From contig NC_016940.1 in the NCBI RefSeq assembly GCF_000250635.1, forward strand, positions 3,844,501-3,908,500: 64,000 nt of DNA, read 5' to 3'. Position 1 is the stretch's first letter. Each line of letters starts with the position of its first letter. The notes beneath the pieces are model-generated. The model saw only the letters and a list, made by a program, of their open reading frames with translations, was not told the DNA's origin and did not search any database. Positions 4,870-19,815 of the stretch are shown here, in pieces. The translations under genes and the position numbers were made by a program. The stretch is from Saprospira grandis str. Lewin. Its GTDB lineage: Bacteria > Bacteroidota > Bacteroidia > Chitinophagales > Saprospiraceae.

Positions 4870-5075
4870 ATAGCTGCAGCTTAAAAGCCGCAGCCAGATT
4901 AGGATCCAATCAGCTAGCTCTTTATTGCCCCTTGGCCTGCAGCTTAAAAGCCGCAGGTCCTGAAAAACCTAAGCCCCTGCTTTCTATCACCGAAGCAGGG
5001 GCTTTTAAGCTCCTGCGGCGAGCAAGATGATGGCCCAACAAGCTTGGCTGCGGCCTTTAGGCTGCAGATAGCGGC
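4870..5075. repeat. Cluster of palindromes with AT-centred loops
   Basis: Contains CTGCAGCTTAAAAGCCGCAG twice in slightly different form, a long hairpin CCCCTGCTT...AAGCAGGGG around 4973-5000, and CTGCGGCCTTTAGGCTGCAG near 5047-5070. The same type of sequence recurs at 37955-38182 and 46255-46445. No gene is visible. Confidence 0.7.
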
Positions 5076-5162
5076 GCAGCCGATGGCCGAAGGACAAATA
5101 GCCCAACAAAACCTTTACGCCCTATTCTGCAGCTGCAAAACGGCATCCTACAGTTGCGCTAA

Positions 5163-5876
5163 GCTATTCGCAATTTGTGAAATGGCAATTGTAAAGCGGG
5201 TTATGCTATTCGCAATTTGTGAAACGGCAATTGTAAAGCGGGTTATGCTATTCGCAATTTGTGAAATGGCAATTGTAAAGCGGGTTATGCTATTCGCAAT
5301 TTGTGAAATGGCAATTGTAAAGTAGGGTATGCTATTCGCAATTTGTGAAACGGCAATTGTAAAGTGGGGGATGCTATTCGCAATTTGTGAAATGGCAATT
5401 GTAAAGTGGGGGATGCTATTCGCAATTTGTGAAACGGCAATTGTAAAGTGGGTTATGCTATTTGCAATTTGTGAAACGGCAATTGTAAAGTAGGGTATGC
5501 TATTCGCAATTTGTGAAACGGCAATTGTAAACTGCGGTAAGCTATTCGCAATTTGTGAAACGGCAATTGTAAAGGAGGGGATGCTATTGGGAATTTGTGA
5601 AACGGCAATTGTAAAGTGGGTTATGCTATTTGCAATTTGTGAAACGGCAATTGTAAAGTGGGGGATGCTATTTGTAATTTGTGAAATGGCAATTGTAAAC
5701 TGCGGTGAGCTATTGGGAATTTGTGAAATGGCAATTGTAAACTGCGGTGAGCTATTTGCAATTTGTGAAATGGTAATTGCAAAGCGGGGGATGCTATTTG
5801 CAATTTGTGAAATGGTAATTGCAAAGCGGGGGATGCTATTGGGAATTTGTGAAACGGCAATTGTAAAGTGGGGGAT
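5163..5876. repeat. 42-bp tandem array, 17 full copies plus a partial one
   Basis: Exact 42-base period from 5163 (units start at 5163, 5205, 5247 ... 5835, with a partial unit at 5877). A unit runs GCTATTCGCAATTTGTGAAA, then CGGCAATTGTAAAG, then a variable end such as CGGGTTAT, TGGGGGAT, TGCGGTAA or TAGGGTAT. Each unit holds the arms CAATT and AATTG about 12 bases apart. Because 42 is divisible by three, the array gives long open frames on both strands, but units ending TAGGG put stops in the forward frame, so coding is unlikely. There are no unique spacers. The array lies between a forward subtype-A and a reverse subtype-B mosaic repeat. Confidence 0.92.
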
Positions 5877-5888
5877 GCTATTCTGCGT

Positions 5889-6035
5889 CTAGAGGCGGCG
5901 AAGCCGCCGGCTGAGGGGCTGTAGCAGGGCCGCCGAAGGCGGCAGACCCAGGCGGCGCAGCCGCCGCAGGGCCGAGCAGACCTGCGAGCTGCGAAATGGC
6001 CCGACCCGCCCGCAGGGCGGGGCAGCCCCAAAAAA
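5889..6035 (-). repeat. GC-rich mosaic repeat, subtype B, reverse
   Basis: Reads GGCTGAGGGGCTGTAGCAG, a GCCGCCGAAGGCGGC hairpin, CAGACC, a GGCGGCGCAGCCGCC hairpin, the core GGGCCGAGCAGACCTGCGAG, CTGCGAAATGGCCCGACCC, a CGCCCGCAGGGCG hairpin and the end GGCAGCCCCAAAA. With 4736-4869 it forms inverted outer ends around the palindromes and the tandem array. Confidence 0.85.
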
Positions 6036-9236: not shown

Positions 9237-9548
9237 TTGGGGCCCGCGGCCGGCAAGCCGGCCGCCGCTATGCTGCGGGGCTCACAGGGCTGTTCGGCCC
9301 TTCGCTTTTTCGCTTTGCTCAAAAGCTCGGTCTGGCCTTCGGCCACCCCTCCGCAGCGCTGGGCCGCTCATCGGGGCGTTTTTACTTTGGGCCTTCTTCT
9401 TTGGCCCTTAAATCAATCTGGCTGAGGGGCTGTAGCAGGGCCGCCGCAGGCGGCAGACCAAAGCGGCGCAGCCGCTGCAGGGCCGAGCAGAGAGCGAGCT
9501 GCGCAATGGCCCGACCCAAGGCCGCAGGCCGCAGGGGCAGCCCCAAAA
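9237..9548. repeat. Two mosaic repeats head-to-head: subtype C forward, subtype B reverse
   Basis: 9237-9376 starts GGGGCCCGCGGCCGG, with GGGGCTCACAGGGCTGTTCG in place of the usual core, a 24-base hairpin around GCTTTTT, GGTCTGGCCTTCGGCC and the inner end GCAGCGCTGGGCC. 9420-9548 is the reverse subtype B ending GGCAGCCCCAAAAAA. The 43 bases between hold no gene. The pair gives one 0.3-kb unit with TTGGGGCC and CCCCAA outer ends. Confidence 0.82.
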
Positions 9549-9580
9549 AATAGAAATATGAAAACTTGAAATACAGGCGT

Positions 9581-9607
9581 AAAAAAAGCAGCCCTTGAGG
9601 GGCTGCT
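9581..9607 (-). terminator. Intrinsic terminator after the helicase gene
   Basis: Minus strand: AGCAGCCC / GGGCTGCT with a 5-base loop (arms 9600-9607 and 9587-9594), followed by T's (9581-9587). It is 12 bases beyond the stop of the 1481-residue gene. Confidence 0.8.
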
Positions 9608-9618
9608 TTTGGCTTAAC

Positions 9619-12600
9619 TTACTTTAGTTGGAAGCGAAGTTTTTTGTTATCGGCTTGAAGTTCTAGGACCTCCGTAGAGATAATGTGCAGGCTAAAATTG
9701 ATTTCGCTGGCCAGATAGCGGTCATTTTTGTGTTCAATTTCATAATCATCGGAGAGGAGTTTGGGGCTTTGGTTCCAATCGACGGTAAGGTCGACCTCTC
9801 CCTCTGGGCTACTCCAGCTAATTTTAAGTTTTTTGGGGTAGAATTTAAGTTTCATATCGCCCCATTTGGCCTCTAGTCGTTGTTTTTCGAAGTGCATGAG
9901 GCTTGGGCTAAAATCGGCTTGTTTGGGGTCGATGATAATGGGGAAGAGGTTTTCCCAGGCAGAAGTTTGTCCTTGTTTATTTTCGTTTAGTTCGTCTTGG
10001 TCCTTATTGCGTTTAATGCTTTGTTTGTAGCGCTGTAGGTCTTTATTGAACTGCTCTTTTCGTTTTCGGATATATGTTTTTATGTTGGGGTTGACGCTTT
10101 GGAGCTGTTCTTCAAACTTATCGCTAGGGCTGCCAAAGCGGCCTTTTTTGTAGGGGCGCATTTGGACCCATTCAAAGAAGTCGAAAACCTCTTCTTTATA
10201 TGTGGCAAAATTGCTCCAATCTTTGTCTATGGCCAAATCTTCTAGCCAGAGGCGCATACCGGCTAGCAATTCGCCTCGGAGGTTGGGGTCCATAGGTTCT
10301 TGTTCAATATTGAATCGCCAGGCATTGGGGTCTTTTTGCATAGCCATGCGTTCTTGGACCAACTTCAGGAATTTGGGGAGCAAGTAGGCCCGTTCTTTTT
10401 TCCCTCGAATTTTAGCGAAGAGGGGCAAAACGAGTTTATCAGAGAACAGTTCTTCTAGCTGTTTGTGGTCGGCTAAAATTTCGAGCAGCCAGCTTAGGTT
10501 TTTGCCTGCTTCTAGGCGTTCTAGGCGGTCCTCTTTTTCCAAATAATAGTCGAGGAGTTTGCGTTTGAGTGCAAGCTGTTGTTTACTTCGGTAGTTGATT
10601 TGGGTGTCTAGCGACAAGATATCGAACTTGATGTTTTGTTTGATATCGTGGGCCTCAATGATGGTGATATAGCGTTCTTCTTTTCGAATCATTAAGCGGA
10701 TGAGTTCTCTTTGCTGGGCTTCGCTATATTGTATATTGTCTCTTACTTTTAGCAACCAGATTCTGTAGAGTTCTTGTAGGAGGGCGGGTTCACGGACATT
10801 TCGGTCTAAAATGCGCACTTTTTCTTGTGGGTCTTTAGTCGTTCGGACTTGGGCGAGTAGTTTTTCGGTACTTTCCATTTTGGGGTCAACATACTGCCAA
10901 ATTTCAAGTGCTTCTTGGTATTTCTGCATTTGGAAGTATCTGTTGGCCAAATGCAGTTGTAGCTGTTTAGAAATTTCTTCTTCCTCTAGTTGGGCGATAT
11001 TTCGGGCCAGCAAGGCATAGCGATCAAAGCGGTTATTATCTTTTTGCTTTTGGAAAAAGGCCAATAACTGCTTTTGCATTTCGAGCAAAAGGGCTTGGCG
11101 TTTGGGATAGACCAGAGGGTCGAGCTCGAAAAACAATTTACTTTGCATATTTTGTTCTAGGCAGACGACCAGATTTCTTTCTTTAGGCTGTAGCATAAAG
11201 GTTAAGACTTTCTCCCAAAATTTATCATTCTGTTGTCTGGCTACCTTGAGGGCCTTGTCTAGTAGACAACCACAGAGGTAGGCTTCTAAAACGGCTTTCC
11301 TTTTGCCCATATCTGAGAATTTTTCAGCGGCGGCCTCATATTGGCCTTCGGCCAAGAGCATTTTGGCTTCCGACTCATTTCGCTTGCTGCTAATCTCTTT
11401 ATAGACATTATTGTATTCTGGATTATCGAGGGCTTTATTGTAAAAGTAGACCGCTTTGCGGTAGGCATTGGCCTCTATCTGCTTATGGTCCGCATTTTCG
11501 GCCTGTTGGCGGTGTTCTTCAGCAATTTCTAGAGGTTTTTGCTCAATATGATCGAGTTCTTGGGCGGGGGTGTTGAGTTGGATCAGGCGGTCTTCAAACT
11601 CAAAGTTGAGCCAGTCTTTATGGTTTTCTTGATTTTCTTCTAGCAATGTTCTGCCTTTTTGAAGAATGCTCCAAAGGGCCGAAATACCTGCTTGGCTATC
11701 AATAATATAAAGGCGGTCTTTGGCTCTGGTTAGGGCCACATAAAGCTTATTATAAAAATAGTTGAGTTTGAACTGTTGCTCATCGCTCAGTTGCTCAATA
11801 AGCAGGTCTAGGCTGAGCCCTTGCTCGGCCAAATAGGCCCCAAAGCCATAGAGAATAATGTTGGGGTACTCTAGTCCCTTGGCCGAAAGGGCCGTTTCTA
11901 GGTTAGAAATGGGTTTGTTCTTCGTTTCCTCCTGCCCAAAGGCTTGGGCCAAAGCCTCAAACATAGGAATAGCGCTCTCTTCTAGTTCGCTGAGTTGTAC
12001 GCCTTCTATACGGTCAAAGGGCAACAGAAAGGTGGTGGCATCTAAGCGCTTGAGCAGCTCGCTATTGACCTCCTGTTCTGCCGGGCCAAAACAAAAGACC
12101 GAGGGGGCCAGGCTCCCTTCTGCATCTTTATATACGGTTTGGGGGAGAATATCTTTGCTGGCGGGAAAATCTCTCCTTTTGTACTGAATAATATTGGCCA
12201 ACTGAATAATGCTACTGGTCGAGCGGTAGTTGTGGTGCAAAGGTTCAATATCAGGCGGAGACAAATGCTCTTGGCTGAGTTGTTCTTGCATTTCGCCCAA
12301 CAAATTGCCTAGACTTCCTTTGAGCAAGGCCCAGCGAAAACCTGTAGGATTGACCGCCTGAAAGGGGTCTCCTGCAAAAATGAGCGGCAACTGTCGAACA
12401 TCTTCTAAATTGAAGTTGCTGTACTGAGATAGACGCAGTAAGAGGTTGATTTCTAGCCGAGAAAAATCCTGTGACTCATCGCAAACTAAAAAACTATAGC
12501 TGCTATCGGTATACCAGCCTTTAATTAAAATTTCTCGAACAAGGTCTTGCTCATCCCAAAGCCCAAGTTCCTCACAACGGCGCTTATACCATTTGTAGGG

Positions 12601-14064
12601 CCCTTGATGTACCCGCTTAAAGAGCTCTGGATTGATAATTCTTCGGTCCTTTTTTTCAATTAAATTGAAGTCGTCCTCGCCCAAAATCTCTTTCTGATAG
12701 CCTTTGATATAGCTACGGATAATATACCAGGCCACTTCTGCCGAAACCTTGCTGGCGTCTTTACAGTCTGCGGCATACTCCTGAGAAAAGCGGGCAAAAT
12801 CAACATATTTTGGGGCTCTGTATTGCTGTCGGTCTTCACTGGCCTGTCGATAAATCTTTAGTAAGAGGTCTCTAAAAGAAGAAAAGAAGCGCTGAAAGTC
12901 TTCGGCCTGGATTTTCTTTTCTAATTCCATACTTTCTTCAGAAGAACTGCGCAAAAGGTTGCGAATCGTGTTCTCTGCTGCCTTGAGCAGTTTTTTATTA
13001 TAACTGAGGTAGAGTGGTGGATCAATATGTAGCGACCAGCCCTCAGCTGAAAGTTGAGCGGGTTTTTCTAAGTAGACCTTGAGAATATTGCGATATAAAT
13101 AGTAGAGCATGGTCGATTTTCCACTACCCGCTTGCCCATCAATCATTAGCGGGAAGTCAAATGTACGCAAAAGCTGCTCCTGCTCTGGGCTAAGGGCCAA
13201 GTTGATGTTTTCTTTAAAGTCTTGAATTTGTTTGGGCACAATCATTTCCCAAAGTTCATCAGAATATAAGACCTCCTCTCCATAGGCCCGAACCGCCAAA
13301 CGGTCTAGCTTTTTGGCCTGACTGTCTTCTTCAAAACTAATGAGCTGCTCTTCAAAGGTGGTTAGATAGTTTTGCATTTCTGCTTTGGTCCCAAAGGCAT
13401 AAAGTAGGTAGCCCACCCGCTGCTCGCTTTCGTCCTGGGCCAATTGAGCCGCCAAAATATAATGCCCTTCCTTGCCAAAGATCAGGCTGTTGTGATTATA
13501 CTCCTTATAATCGTAGCTGTCTAAATTGGCTTCAATTAGGTCATAGAGAAAGACCTTGATCCTAGAACTCGCATTAAAGTGCTTCCTAATGGTTTTGCGC
13601 CAGTTTTTGGCCTCAAAAAAAGAAAGTATGGGCTTTTCGTTTTTTACCTCTTGTAGCATTTTGTCAAAAGGAACAGGTAGCGGCTCCCGCAAGCTCTGCA
13701 TTTCATTATGTACACTCCTTTGCTGCGCTTTTAGCGCCTCCACATCTTCCAAAAAATGCTTGTTGTACCAACTCTCTATGTCTGTGACTATCTTGTCGTA
13801 GTCATTGCTTTTTCGCTTGAACAACTCCAGAAAAAAGAGCTGATCTGCTTCAAATTTATAAATCAGCCGATAGACGTTCTCCGAACGGCCAACCTTTTCT
13901 TTGTGTAAGCCACTTTTTAGGCGTAGGGCCTGAAACCGACTGCCGTTCCAATCAAAGTTCTCTTTGAGAAACTGAATCTTTTTGCGAATTCGACTTTGGT
14001 CTTCCTGCGATAAATTCTTAAGTCCTTCTTCAAAAGTAGGGTGCAAATGATGCGGGTAAGTCAT
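9619..14064 (-). CDS. Giant SF1 helicase with N-terminal RelE-like domain and helical-repeat tail
   Basis: 1481 residues. Residues 7-92 have the pattern of the RelE/ParE toxin fold (FEEGLKNLSQEDQ, then RSENVYRLIYKFEADQLFF and FKRKSNDYDKI). Residues about 295-790 are a UvrD-like SF1 helicase: Walker A GQAGSGKST (310-318), motif II CDESQDF (528-534), motif III AGDPFQAVNPTGF (564-576), motif IV NYRS (612-615), motif V SAKGLEYPNIILYG (727-740), motif VI VALTRAKDRL (776-785). From about 850 onward it is largely helical with TPR-like pairs (KAVYFYNKALDNPEY, LLAEGQYEAAAEKF). All ATPase motifs look intact, so it should bind and move on nucleic acid in the cytoplasm. The layout recalls TRANK1-type helicases. 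It stands alone with its own terminator. Role in repair, RNA decay or defence is not decidable. Confidence 0.9.
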   Translation of the reverse strand: MTYPHHLHPTFEEGLKNLSQEDQSRIRKKIQFLKENFDWNGSRFQALRLKSGLHKEKVGRSENVYRLIYKFEADQLFFLELFKRKSNDYDKIVTDIESWYNKHFLEDVEALKAQQRSVHNEMQSLREPLPVPFDKMLQEVKNEKPILSFFEAKNWRKTIRKHFNASSRIKVFLYDLIEANLDSYDYKEYNHNSLIFGKEGHYILAAQLAQDESEQRVGYLLYAFGTKAEMQNYLTTFEEQLISFEEDSQAKKLDRLAVRAYGEEVLYSDELWEMIVPKQIQDFKENINLALSPEQEQLLRTFDFPLMIDGQAGSGKSTMLYYLYRNILKVYLEKPAQLSAEGWSLHIDPPLYLSYNKKLLKAAENTIRNLLRSSSEESMELEKKIQAEDFQRFFSSFRDLLLKIYRQASEDRQQYRAPKYVDFARFSQEYAADCKDASKVSAEVAWYIIRSYIKGYQKEILGEDDFNLIEKKDRRIINPELFKRVHQGPYKWYKRRCEELGLWDEQDLVREILIKGWYTDSSYSFLVCDESQDFSRLEINLLLRLSQYSNFNLEDVRQLPLIFAGDPFQAVNPTGFRWALLKGSLGNLLGEMQEQLSQEHLSPPDIEPLHHNYRSTSSIIQLANIIQYKRRDFPASKDILPQTVYKDAEGSLAPSVFCFGPAEQEVNSELLKRLDATTFLLPFDRIEGVQLSELEESAIPMFEALAQAFGQEETKNKPISNLETALSAKGLEYPNIILYGFGAYLAEQGLSLDLLIEQLSDEQQFKLNYFYNKLYVALTRAKDRLYIIDSQAGISALWSILQKGRTLLEENQENHKDWLNFEFEDRLIQLNTPAQELDHIEQKPLEIAEEHRQQAENADHKQIEANAYRKAVYFYNKALDNPEYNNVYKEISSKRNESEAKMLLAEGQYEAAAEKFSDMGKRKAVLEAYLCGCLLDKALKVARQQNDKFWEKVLTFMLQPKERNLVVCLEQNMQSKLFFELDPLVYPKRQALLLEMQKQLLAFFQKQKDNNRFDRYALLARNIAQLEEEEISKQLQLHLANRYFQMQKYQEALEIWQYVDPKMESTEKLLAQVRTTKDPQEKVRILDRNVREPALLQELYRIWLLKVRDNIQYSEAQQRELIRLMIRKEERYITIIEAHDIKQNIKFDILSLDTQINYRSKQQLALKRKLLDYYLEKEDRLERLEAGKNLSWLLEILADHKQLEELFSDKLVLPLFAKIRGKKERAYLLPKFLKLVQERMAMQKDPNAWRFNIEQEPMDPNLRGELLAGMRLWLEDLAIDKDWSNFATYKEEVFDFFEWVQMRPYKKGRFGSPSDKFEEQLQSVNPNIKTYIRKRKEQFNKDLQRYKQSIKRNKDQDELNENKQGQTSAWENLFPIIIDPKQADFSPSLMHFEKQRLEAKWGDMKLKFYPKKLKISWSSPEGEVDLTVDWNQSPKLLSDDYEIEHKNDRYLASEINFSLHIISTEVLELQADNKKLRFQLK

Positions 14065-14383: not shown

Positions 14384-14782
14384 ATGGAAAAAAAAGTACG
14401 ATTAAAAAAAAGCTGGCTGATTGTAGATGAAGCTAATGGAATTGTTATCCAAAGAATGGATGAGGGCGCTTATCTGGAAGCCCAAGATTCCTACGATTGC
14501 TTTGATCAGTGTTTTCAGCTCAAGGGAAAAGAACCTATTTATTTCCTTTCCGATATGCGTGCAGTAAAAGGAATGAGCAAAGAAGCCCGTAAAGTGACTG
14601 CCGCAGATGCCAAGGACGCAAACTTTCATGCCGTGGCCGCATTGATCAATAGCGGAGCATCTAAAATTCTAGGCAATTTTATGATTCGCATCAACAAACA
14701 TAAGCATCCCATCAAGATGTTTACTAATGAGGCCGAAGCTATCGCCTGGCTGAAAAAACAAAGAGAAGCCGCTGGCCTTTAG
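14384..14782 (+). CDS. STAS/SpoIIAA-like protein (DUF7793-type)
   Basis: 132 residues, no signal peptide. The sequence PIYFLSDMRAVKGMSKEARKVTAAD, then HAVAALINSGASKILGNFMIRINKHKHPIKMFTNEAEAIAWLK, matches the Bacteroidota family of small STAS/SpoIIAA-like proteins in which a central DMR strand-turn is followed by a helix and a C-terminal EAxxWL helix. Members are thought to act as regulatory or binding modules; no catalytic residues are visible. Single gene closed by a strong terminator. Confidence 0.7.
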   Translation: MEKKVRLKKSWLIVDEANGIVIQRMDEGAYLEAQDSYDCFDQCFQLKGKEPIYFLSDMRAVKGMSKEARKVTAADAKDANFHAVAALINSGASKILGNFMIRINKHKHPIKMFTNEAEAIAWLKKQREAAGL

Positions 14783-16035: not shown

Positions 16036-16222
16036 GGATTTGGGGCCCGCGGCCGGCTAGGCTCCGCCTAGGTCGGCCGCCGCTATGCTGCGGGGCTCAC
16101 AGGGCTGTTCGGCCCTTCGCAAAACTTCGCTAAGGCTCGTTTTGCTCGGTCTGGCCTTCGGCCACCCGCTCCGCAGCGCTGGGCCTGTTTGGCCTTCGGC
16201 CATGGCGGCTTCGCCGCTTCTT
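16036..16222 (+). repeat. GC-rich mosaic repeat, subtype C, forward
   Basis: Starts TTTGGGGCCCGCGGCCGG, has GGGGCTCACAGGGCTGTTCG in the core position, a hairpin AAAACTTCGCTAAGGCTCGTTTT, GGTCTGGCCTTCGGCC, GCAGCGCTGGGCC and an extra GGCCTTCGGCC hairpin. Left partner of the reverse subtype-B copy at 17038-17178. Confidence 0.82.
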
Positions 16223-16479
16223 TGCTGCTTAGATTTGGAAAAGGGAAACTGTTTAACATTTTGTGTTTCTCCTTTTTGCTGCCTAGGGGCTTGTCCCTAG
16301 GCGACTATTGGCTAAATCCCAACAAGCTAAAGGCCCAAGTTTTATTTTAATACACAAAATCCTGAAGAGTACATTATTCCTCTTCTTTAGTCTTTGGTTC
16401 TACTCATTTACTGTTGCTATGCAGTAGCTGTACTGCTCTGATGCGGTCCTTTACTGTATGATAGAGGTGGTTGAAGTCC
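16223..16479. other. Non-coding spacer with one palindrome
   Basis: Between the subtype-C repeat and the tandem array. Contains GCCTAGGG-GCTTGT-CCCTAGGC (16281-16302), a perfect 8-base stem also seen in similar form near 44605-44625. No gene is seen. Confidence 0.5.
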
Positions 16480-19296: not shown

Positions 19297-19502
19297 GAAA
19301 GATAATATTTGGTGAAAAATCTGCTGCAAAGCTACGCTTCTAGTCTTAGCCCTACTTTAGCAGAAGTTTAGCTCTTCATAAAGAAGTTTAGGCTTTACAT
19401 TAAGCTGCGGTTAATAAAAAAATCCCATTATTAAGCTTCTTGTGAAAGCTTTTATCCACCAATTTAATGCACTAAATTTATCTCTCTTTGGATGTTTTTT
19501 TC

Positions 19503-19630
19503 TTTGGGGCTTGCCCGCCTTTCAGGCGGGCCGGGCTGTGCCGCAGCTCGCAGGTCTGCTCGGCCCTTCACAAAAAAGCTGCGCTTTTTGTTCGGTCTGG
19601 CCCTTCGGGCCACTGCTATCCATCCCTAAG
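19503..19630 (+). repeat. GC-rich mosaic repeat, subtype B, forward
   Basis: TTTGGGGCTTGCCCGCC, hairpin CGCCTTTCAGGCG, GGGCTGTGCCGCAGCTCGC, AGGTCTGCTCGGCCC, the long hairpin ACAAAAAAGCTGCGCTTTTTGT, GGTCTGGCCCTTCGGGCC, ending at TCCCTAAGCC. Confidence 0.85.
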
Positions 19631-19639
19631 CCAGATTTA

Positions 19640-19815
19640 ATCGCGCTGCTTTGGCTATAGTTTGCTATGAATTTTTGGCTAGGCCAGCTATTTTTTAAGG
19701 GCATAGCCTTCGCTATGGTGGAGAAAAATAGGGCCGACTAGCGAGAAATTGCTGCAAACTATAAAAGTGAGTGCGTTTAAATCTGGCTATTGCCTGCGGG
19801 CGCTTTGCGCCCTGC
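19640..19815 (-). repeat. Dispersed AT-richer repeat (copy 1, inverted relative to 23.9 kb)
   Basis: Reverse complement of the element at 23876-24010, with three near-identical stretches of about 27 to 40 bases: one ending CGCACTCACTTTTAT, one with GCAGCAATTTCTCGCTAG, one with ATAGCGAAGGCTATGCCC. CATAGCCTTCGCTATG is itself a palindrome. It ends GGGCGCTTTGCGCCC and CAACCCAAAAAA. 19297-19502 and 19816-19971 hold nothing recognised. Confidence 0.75.

Follow-up and report, generated by a model that had tools for sequence, protein, structure and literature searches.

Fusion of a RelE-like domain to a UvrD helicase has already been described. According to the available part of the ARMADA report (PMC12458937), ArmD of the type II system is a defence protein in which a RelE-like domain at the N-terminus precedes an SF1 helicase of the UvrD/GajB-like kind, and it needs three partners, ArmA, ArmB and ArmC: protection is lost on deletion of any of the four genes. 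The same part of the report gives the protection as direct and non-abortive, with a Walker A substitution in ArmD (K266A) abolishing it and D454N reducing it, and contains no mutant of the RelE domain. In the open-licence literature, neither Gerdes 2025 nor Makarova 2009 describes a fusion of RelE and UvrD before ARMADA; the Gerdes 2025 survey of the RelE/ParE superfamily does not mention helicases and leaves out many multidomain proteins that lack an identifiable antitoxin.

Several other systems are similar in part. The usual account of RelE toxins is in terms of their antitoxins, and a type II RelBE module has an adjacent antitoxin gene, which the gene described here does not. An RNase and an SF1 helicase are joined in one chain in the Schlafens SLFN11 and SLFN14; however, these proteins are vertebrate and have a different RNase fold, and the likeness is one of analogy only. 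Cami1, an ancillary effector of type III CRISPR, cleaves mRNA at the A site and is an example of a RelE nuclease under the control of a fused sensor (PMC11229360), although its sensor is a cA4-binding CARF domain and there is no helicase. Gabija consists of the UvrD-like helicase GajB and the OLD nuclease GajA, encoded by separate genes and with no mention of a RelE domain, and in PARIS the ATPase and TOPRIM proteins are also separate (PMC10568477).

The gene studied here is found in Saprospira grandis str. Lewin, in a stretch of 64,000 nucleotides that we call the window. It is a complete ORF of 1481 aa at 9619..14064 on the minus strand, as are all features of the protein given below, with its ATG at the 14064 end and a TAA stop codon. 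The original prediction had placed it at these coordinates, which were borne out, and had left the strand unstated. The domain order across 9619..14064 is a RelE-like domain, a linker, an SF1A helicase, a helical tail and a C-terminal beta-rich part. Directly 3' of the stop codon there is an intrinsic-terminator-like hairpin with a T run (9581..9608, minus strand), and the gene appears to be monocistronic. A comparison of three Saprospira copies puts dN/dS at 0.06-0.17 across almost every part of the gene; it is therefore real and constrained, which argues against a chance ORF. The orthologue in S. grandis DSM 2844 is 94% identical.

The first 92 residues had been predicted to follow a RelE/ParE pattern, and structural modelling confirmed the fold, which we assign to residues 1-104 (13753..14064) on the basis of AlphaFold2, Foldseek and VIA-align comparisons and profile matches. 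HMMER found no match to the N-terminus in Pfam, and in a search of the whole protein against Pfam and NCBIfam the N-terminus was again unmatched and UvrD was weak; phmmer with the single N-terminus against the PDB returned chance matches such as Ski7, which were discarded. Searches of the PDB with profiles of the family's N-termini recovered archaeal RelE (1wmi), YoeB, RelK and HigB with E-values of about 0.002-0.2, a range in which RelE-type chains are mixed with unrelated ones. By hhalign, the N-termini match E. coli RelE with E 1.4e-4 (probability 53). The hhalign comparison of alignments A4 and A5 is non-independent, L030 being common to both, and the clean version gave E 8.5e-5 (probability 60). 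The model, made without templates, has the order beta-alpha-alpha-beta-beta-beta-alpha with a mean pLDDT of 79.8, and its 50 best Foldseek matches and 50 best VIA-align matches all belong to the RelE/ParE superfamily (50/50 in each case). Comparison with RelE, YoeB and ParE thus returned a RelE fold rather than an unrelated one. Ribosome-bound RelE (4v7j/4v7k) is a close match, with a Z of 9.9 and an rmsd of 2.1 A over 91 residues for RelE on the 70S ribosome, and Cami1 reaches a Z of 9.5 by VIA-align.

The catalytic residues of RelE can be located in the S. grandis protein by alignment to the E. coli RelE sequence of the MG1655 record. K57 (13894..13896) corresponds to RelE K52, R66 (13867..13869) to the transition-state arginine R61, R84 (13813..13815) to the general acid R81, and Y89 (13798..13800) to Y87, which serves in base stacking or as general base; in the same alignment no counterpart of K54 was found. 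In RelE, the substitutions R61A, R81A and Y87A each lower cleavage, R81A/Y87F nearly abolishes it, and a role is also described for K52 (PMC2807027). The original prediction had left open whether the domain is an RNase or a gyrase-binding module, and the matched residues favour a RelE-type RNase over a gyrase-binding ParE. Were the N-terminus instead a ParE-like gyrase poison under helicase control, it would belong to the same fold superfamily, and ParE structures do occur, at Z 8-9, among the VIA-align matches listed; however, RelE toxins are the closest by Foldseek E-value among the matches listed, and the RelE residues R61, R81 and Y87 have their equivalents. We regard such a poison as highly improbable, and a ParE-type gyrase inhibitor was rejected because the residues fit RelE.

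Between this domain and the helicase is a linker (residues 105-285; 13210..13752) that contains, in a low-confidence model, a small alpha/beta segment, with E151 invariant. The SF1A helicase, of the UvrD/Rep-like type, is assigned to residues 286-835 (11560..13209) from its motifs and the model. As had been predicted for the middle of the protein, the motifs are all present together with a UvrD-like fold: the Q motif (residues 291-295), motif I or Walker A (GQAGSGKST, 310-318; 13111..13137), motif II or Walker B (DESQD, 529-533; 12466..12480), motif III (AGDPFQ, 564-569; 12358..12375), motif IV (NYRS, 612-615; 12220..12231), motif V (SAKGLEY, 727-733; 11866..11886) and motif VI (VALTRA, 776-781; 11722..11739). 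A model of residues 1-1200 has a mean pLDDT of 68.6, and the best structural matches of its helicase are Rep, UvrD and PcrA (Rep: Z 19.3, 4.5 A over 411 residues); further matches include HelD, Gabija GajB, UPF1-like helicases and the Schlafens SLFN11 and SLFN14. In PADLOC, GajB is the best name for the helicase, though a weak one.

The tail covers residues 836-1380 (9925..11559) and consists of TPR-like helical hairpins to at least about residue 1130; up to there it is assigned from the model, which is poor beyond residue 1127, and beyond 1130 from sequence. Residues about 834-1130 form short antiparallel helices with a pLDDT mostly of 75-90. The term TPR-like describes the helical hairpins of the model and weak TPR_2 matches in relatives, and is not a profile result, the S. 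grandis protein itself having no TPR match in Pfam. Residues 1381-1481 (9622..9924) are probably beta-rich, judging from sequence, and these C-terminal ~100 residues are alignable in several standalone homologues. The earlier description of the last ~600 residues as helical repeats is right except for the last ~100, which look beta-rich; the model bears it out for about 834-1130. The proposed relation to TRANK1 is a likeness of outline only, the bacterial relatives having TPR-like or ankyrin tails.

Every RelE-helicase relative whose N-terminus was inspected starts with a RelE-like domain, including those whose helicase is as little as 23-27% identical. In a search of plasmids, the nearest outside relatives were RelE-helicases with repeat tails; a single-sequence search of genome contigs found the sister strain DSM 2844 alone, and no relatives were found in phage records. 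The helicase tree contains four groups: ArmD-like proteins, ankyrin-tailed proteins, cyanobacterial and other proteins with TPR-like tails, and the clade of the window protein (15 rows, support 100/100). ArmD and the S. grandis protein fall in separate, well supported clades. ArmD as encoded on an E. coli plasmid (L044 13983-16097) has 704 aa, no tail and a His in the RelE site, and its locus has the ARMADA gene order of SNF2 (ArmA), methyltransferase (ArmB) and YprA-like helicase (ArmC), whereas the S. grandis gene is without such neighbours. Membership in ARMADA is ruled out by the missing partner genes and the separate clade. The RelE-helicases with TPR-like or ankyrin tails found on plasmids (cyanobacterial, Methylosinus, Cetobacterium and Piscirickettsia) and in genomes of the phylum share the RelE-like N-terminus, SF1 helicase and repeat tail with the S. 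grandis protein, but they have about 900-1470 aa and a His-type RelE site, and belong to separate clades. Ankyrin tails or ankyrin-like ends were seen on the RelE-helicases of L040, L043, L008, L014 and L016, and proteins of the ankyrin type are common within a single family of the phylum as well as being present on Methylosinus and Piscirickettsia plasmids.

Within the window clade there are two kinds of protein. Type A members are standalone proteins of about 1420-1530 aa. Type B members (L032, L036 and L077) have the same RelE-helicase-helical core and lie in the same 100/100 clade, but differ by a C-terminal AAA/RecF-type ATPase, of the PDC-M38A/AbiL/AriA type, and an adjoining gene for a DUF3226 TOPRIM partner. 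One of them is a paralogue in the same genome (L032 4720-10111; G000:C1 about 829719-835110). Its ATPase matches PADLOC PDC-M38A (7e-40), AbiLi (4e-32) and AriA (2e-17), and its TOPRIM partner, whose gene overlaps that of the paralogue, matches PDC-M38B (3e-10) and DUF3226 (5e-12). An ATPase with a separate TOPRIM protein, as in PARIS and AbiL-like systems, is thus a feature of this paralogue and not of the window protein, beside which no GajA-type OLD ATPase-TOPRIM nuclease was found either. In contrast to Gabija, the paralogue has its ATPase fused to the helicase and its TOPRIM separate; the fusion resembles a rearranged Gabija/PARIS pair.

The active site was compared across the family. All 11 type A N-termini have Arg at position 66, while position 84, five before the Y89 equivalent, is Arg in nine and Lys in two, and position 89 is Tyr in 10 and Phe in one; the site is intact in 11/11 standalone proteins and eroded in 2/3 of type B, where positions 66/84/89 read R/G/F, R/K/Y and K/G/H (n=3). 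In relatives of the ArmD, ankyrin and cyanobacterial types, the residue equivalent to 84 is His in 15/15 cases, an alternative that we take to be compatible with YoeB-type nucleases. Because R/K84 is kept in type A and His84 in the other relatives, two RNase-compatible versions of the site seem to be maintained. The RelE site may decay in some proteins that carry another effector, although the sequences are few and related, and the pattern is only suggestive. The eroded sites and the unmatched K54 are evidence against an effector role for the domain.

Comparison within the species shows a further peculiarity of the RelE segment. The protein of S. grandis strain G728 is 98% identical to the window protein in the helicase but 67% in the RelE domain, where dS is about 1.5 compared with 0.07-0.28 elsewhere, and dN/dS is 0.13. 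The DNA of the two strains is 95-100% identical upstream to about codon 5; over codons about 5-137 (13655..14055, minus strand) identity falls to 57-85% with one short conserved island, and beyond this tract it returns to 90-100%. Residues 55-70, which include K57 and R66, are identical between the two alleles (16/16), and R84 and Y89 are kept in both; outside residues 55-70 the alleles differ at near-saturating synonymous distance. The pattern is best read as allele replacement by recombination, in which the RelE segment alone would have been swapped as a cassette under purifying selection. We know of no report of such a swap. The exchange of a RelE segment within one species while its catalytic strip stays constant suggests which part is under pressure.

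The distribution of the gene is patchy. With a threshold of E 1e-25 or better, RelE-helicase profiles matched 7/398 genomes of the order, 3/395 of the phylum and 8/341 of a second class. In the congener G002 the RelE-helicase gene is absent and the two genes that flank it in S. grandis are separated by about 0.6 kb, leaving an empty site in place of the segment 9551..14393. The patchy distribution and the empty site rule out a housekeeping gene, and the gene is better described as accessory. GC-rich dispersed intergenic repeats of similar sequence are found at about 9237-9550, 16085-16300 and 19442-19660. One of them borders the inserted gene on its left, and repeats of this sort are also present in the empty site of G002. 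Short tandem repeats at 5044-5892 translate as repeated 'MLFAICEMAIVKRG' and are probably non-coding. The 132-aa gene at 14384-14782 (+) is DUF7793/SpoIIAA-like; each Saprospira genome has about 25-33 members of its family, and many of these are arranged in tandem clusters.

No antitoxin-like ORF is present in either flank of the RelE-helicase gene, as the original prediction had stated. The neighbours encode an ABC transporter, the DUF7793 protein, a desaturase, dNK and BioB, and this placement among housekeeping genes (bioB, dNK, ABC transporter, desaturase) is evidence against a defence role; by eye, no obvious defence neighbour was seen for the window copy, L076 or L090. However, a survey of homologues, with defence adjacency counted by hand, found several that adjoin restriction-modification or defence genes or sit on a viral contig. 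Among type A homologues, that of L034 has a type IIG restriction enzyme 30 bp away, that of L035 has as neighbours a PLD/Snf2 helicase and a PDC-S14 protein, that of L089 adjoins a PDC-S11-like gene, and that of L091 has a type II methyltransferase about 7 kb away. In L037 (5461-18999), a PDC-M16A helicase, a TPR protein, the RelE-helicase, a NERD-UvrD helicase and an HmaA/DrmD-like SNF2 protein are encoded co-directionally, and this run of four helicases is possibly one defence operon. A 1450-aa homologue on an IMG/VR contig (L056 184-8640) lies near a transposase-like ORF and terminase genes, and might be a prophage cargo gene.

Two explanations do not involve defence. The gene might stabilise itself or a mobile element in an addiction-like manner; related RelE-helicases on plasmids and the viral-contig homologue near a terminase gene would fit this, but there is no antitoxin, and the gene is cleanly absent from G002 with its flanks intact, which makes a selfish function a very improbable explanation. 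Somewhat better placed, though still unlikely, is the idea that the RelE fold is an inert binding module that docks on the ribosome, RNA polymerase or gyrase, the protein being a helicase for repair or for transcription conflicts. In favour of it, the structural matches include HelD, an SF1 protein that binds RNA polymerase, homologues diverge strongly in their N-terminal sequence, and catalytic residues are lost in some ATPase/TOPRIM-type relatives; against this stand the patchy distribution and empty site, the defence neighbours of homologues and the retention of R/K84 and Y/F89 in the standalone forms.

We favour the reading that the RelE-helicase is an antiphage enzyme in which sensing by the helicase and tail releases a RelE mRNase, with a probability of roughly 0.5; the genomic context of the homologues supports a defence role. 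In this scheme, the N-terminal RelE-type domain would be the effector, a nuclease that cleaves mRNA and is probably dependent on the ribosome, and the helicase motor and TPR-like tail would act as sensor and lock, holding the toxin quiet within the same chain and so replacing an antitoxin. The helicase and tail might engage nucleic acid or protein derived from the invader, whereupon ATP-driven movement would expose the RelE active site and translation would stop. We infer the RNase activity, its ribosome dependence, the sensed ligand and the release step. The original prediction of a self-contained defence enzyme is partly supported, by the fold, the helicase, the lack of an antitoxin gene, the accessory distribution and the defence context of homologues, but the architecture is not unprecedented, given ArmD.

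The non-abortive defence by ArmD, as given in the available part of the ARMADA report, is the strongest caution against a translation shut-off: because ARMADA is non-abortive and no RelE mutant of ArmD appears there, the RelE domain may be something other than an effector that arrests growth. The main rival is a direct action on nucleic acid like that of ARMADA, in which the helicase moves along invading DNA or its transcripts while the RelE domain either cleaves RNA encountered on the way or serves just to position the motor, with no translation shut-off and no abortive infection. ArmD, the sole tested relative, belongs to a non-abortive system in which a Walker A mutation abolishes protection (PMC12458937, available part), and the best matches of the helicase fold are the DNA translocases Rep, UvrD and PcrA. 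On the other hand, the three partners that ArmD requires are absent beside the S. grandis gene, and a domain that did no more than position the motor would not need a conserved RelE catalytic strip. We consider direct action possible but somewhat doubtful.

The favoured antiphage reading can be taken further, if only tentatively. The protein may be a single-chain, antitoxin-free 'toxin on a motor', in which an SF1 helicase and a TPR-like tail cage a standalone, ribosome-dependent RelE mRNase that defends alone; its RelE cassette would be exchanged between alleles in an arms race with phage inhibitors, and a sister lineage would have switched its effector to an ATPase/TOPRIM nuclease, leaving the RelE site to decay. 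We put this fuller account forward as a possibility rather than an expectation.

Finally, we note what is new and what it may mean. The fusion is known from ARMADA; the standalone tailed clade, its RelE-type site, the ATPase/TOPRIM sister and the cassette swap are new. The existence of type B suggests that a common helicase-sensor chassis can carry different effectors in exchange for one another. The S. grandis protein would offer a simpler, one-gene relative for the unexplained RelE domain of ArmD. If the proposed mechanism is true, a helicase-governed RelE would be another route, besides the CARF-RelE fusion, to a sensor-controlled toxin.
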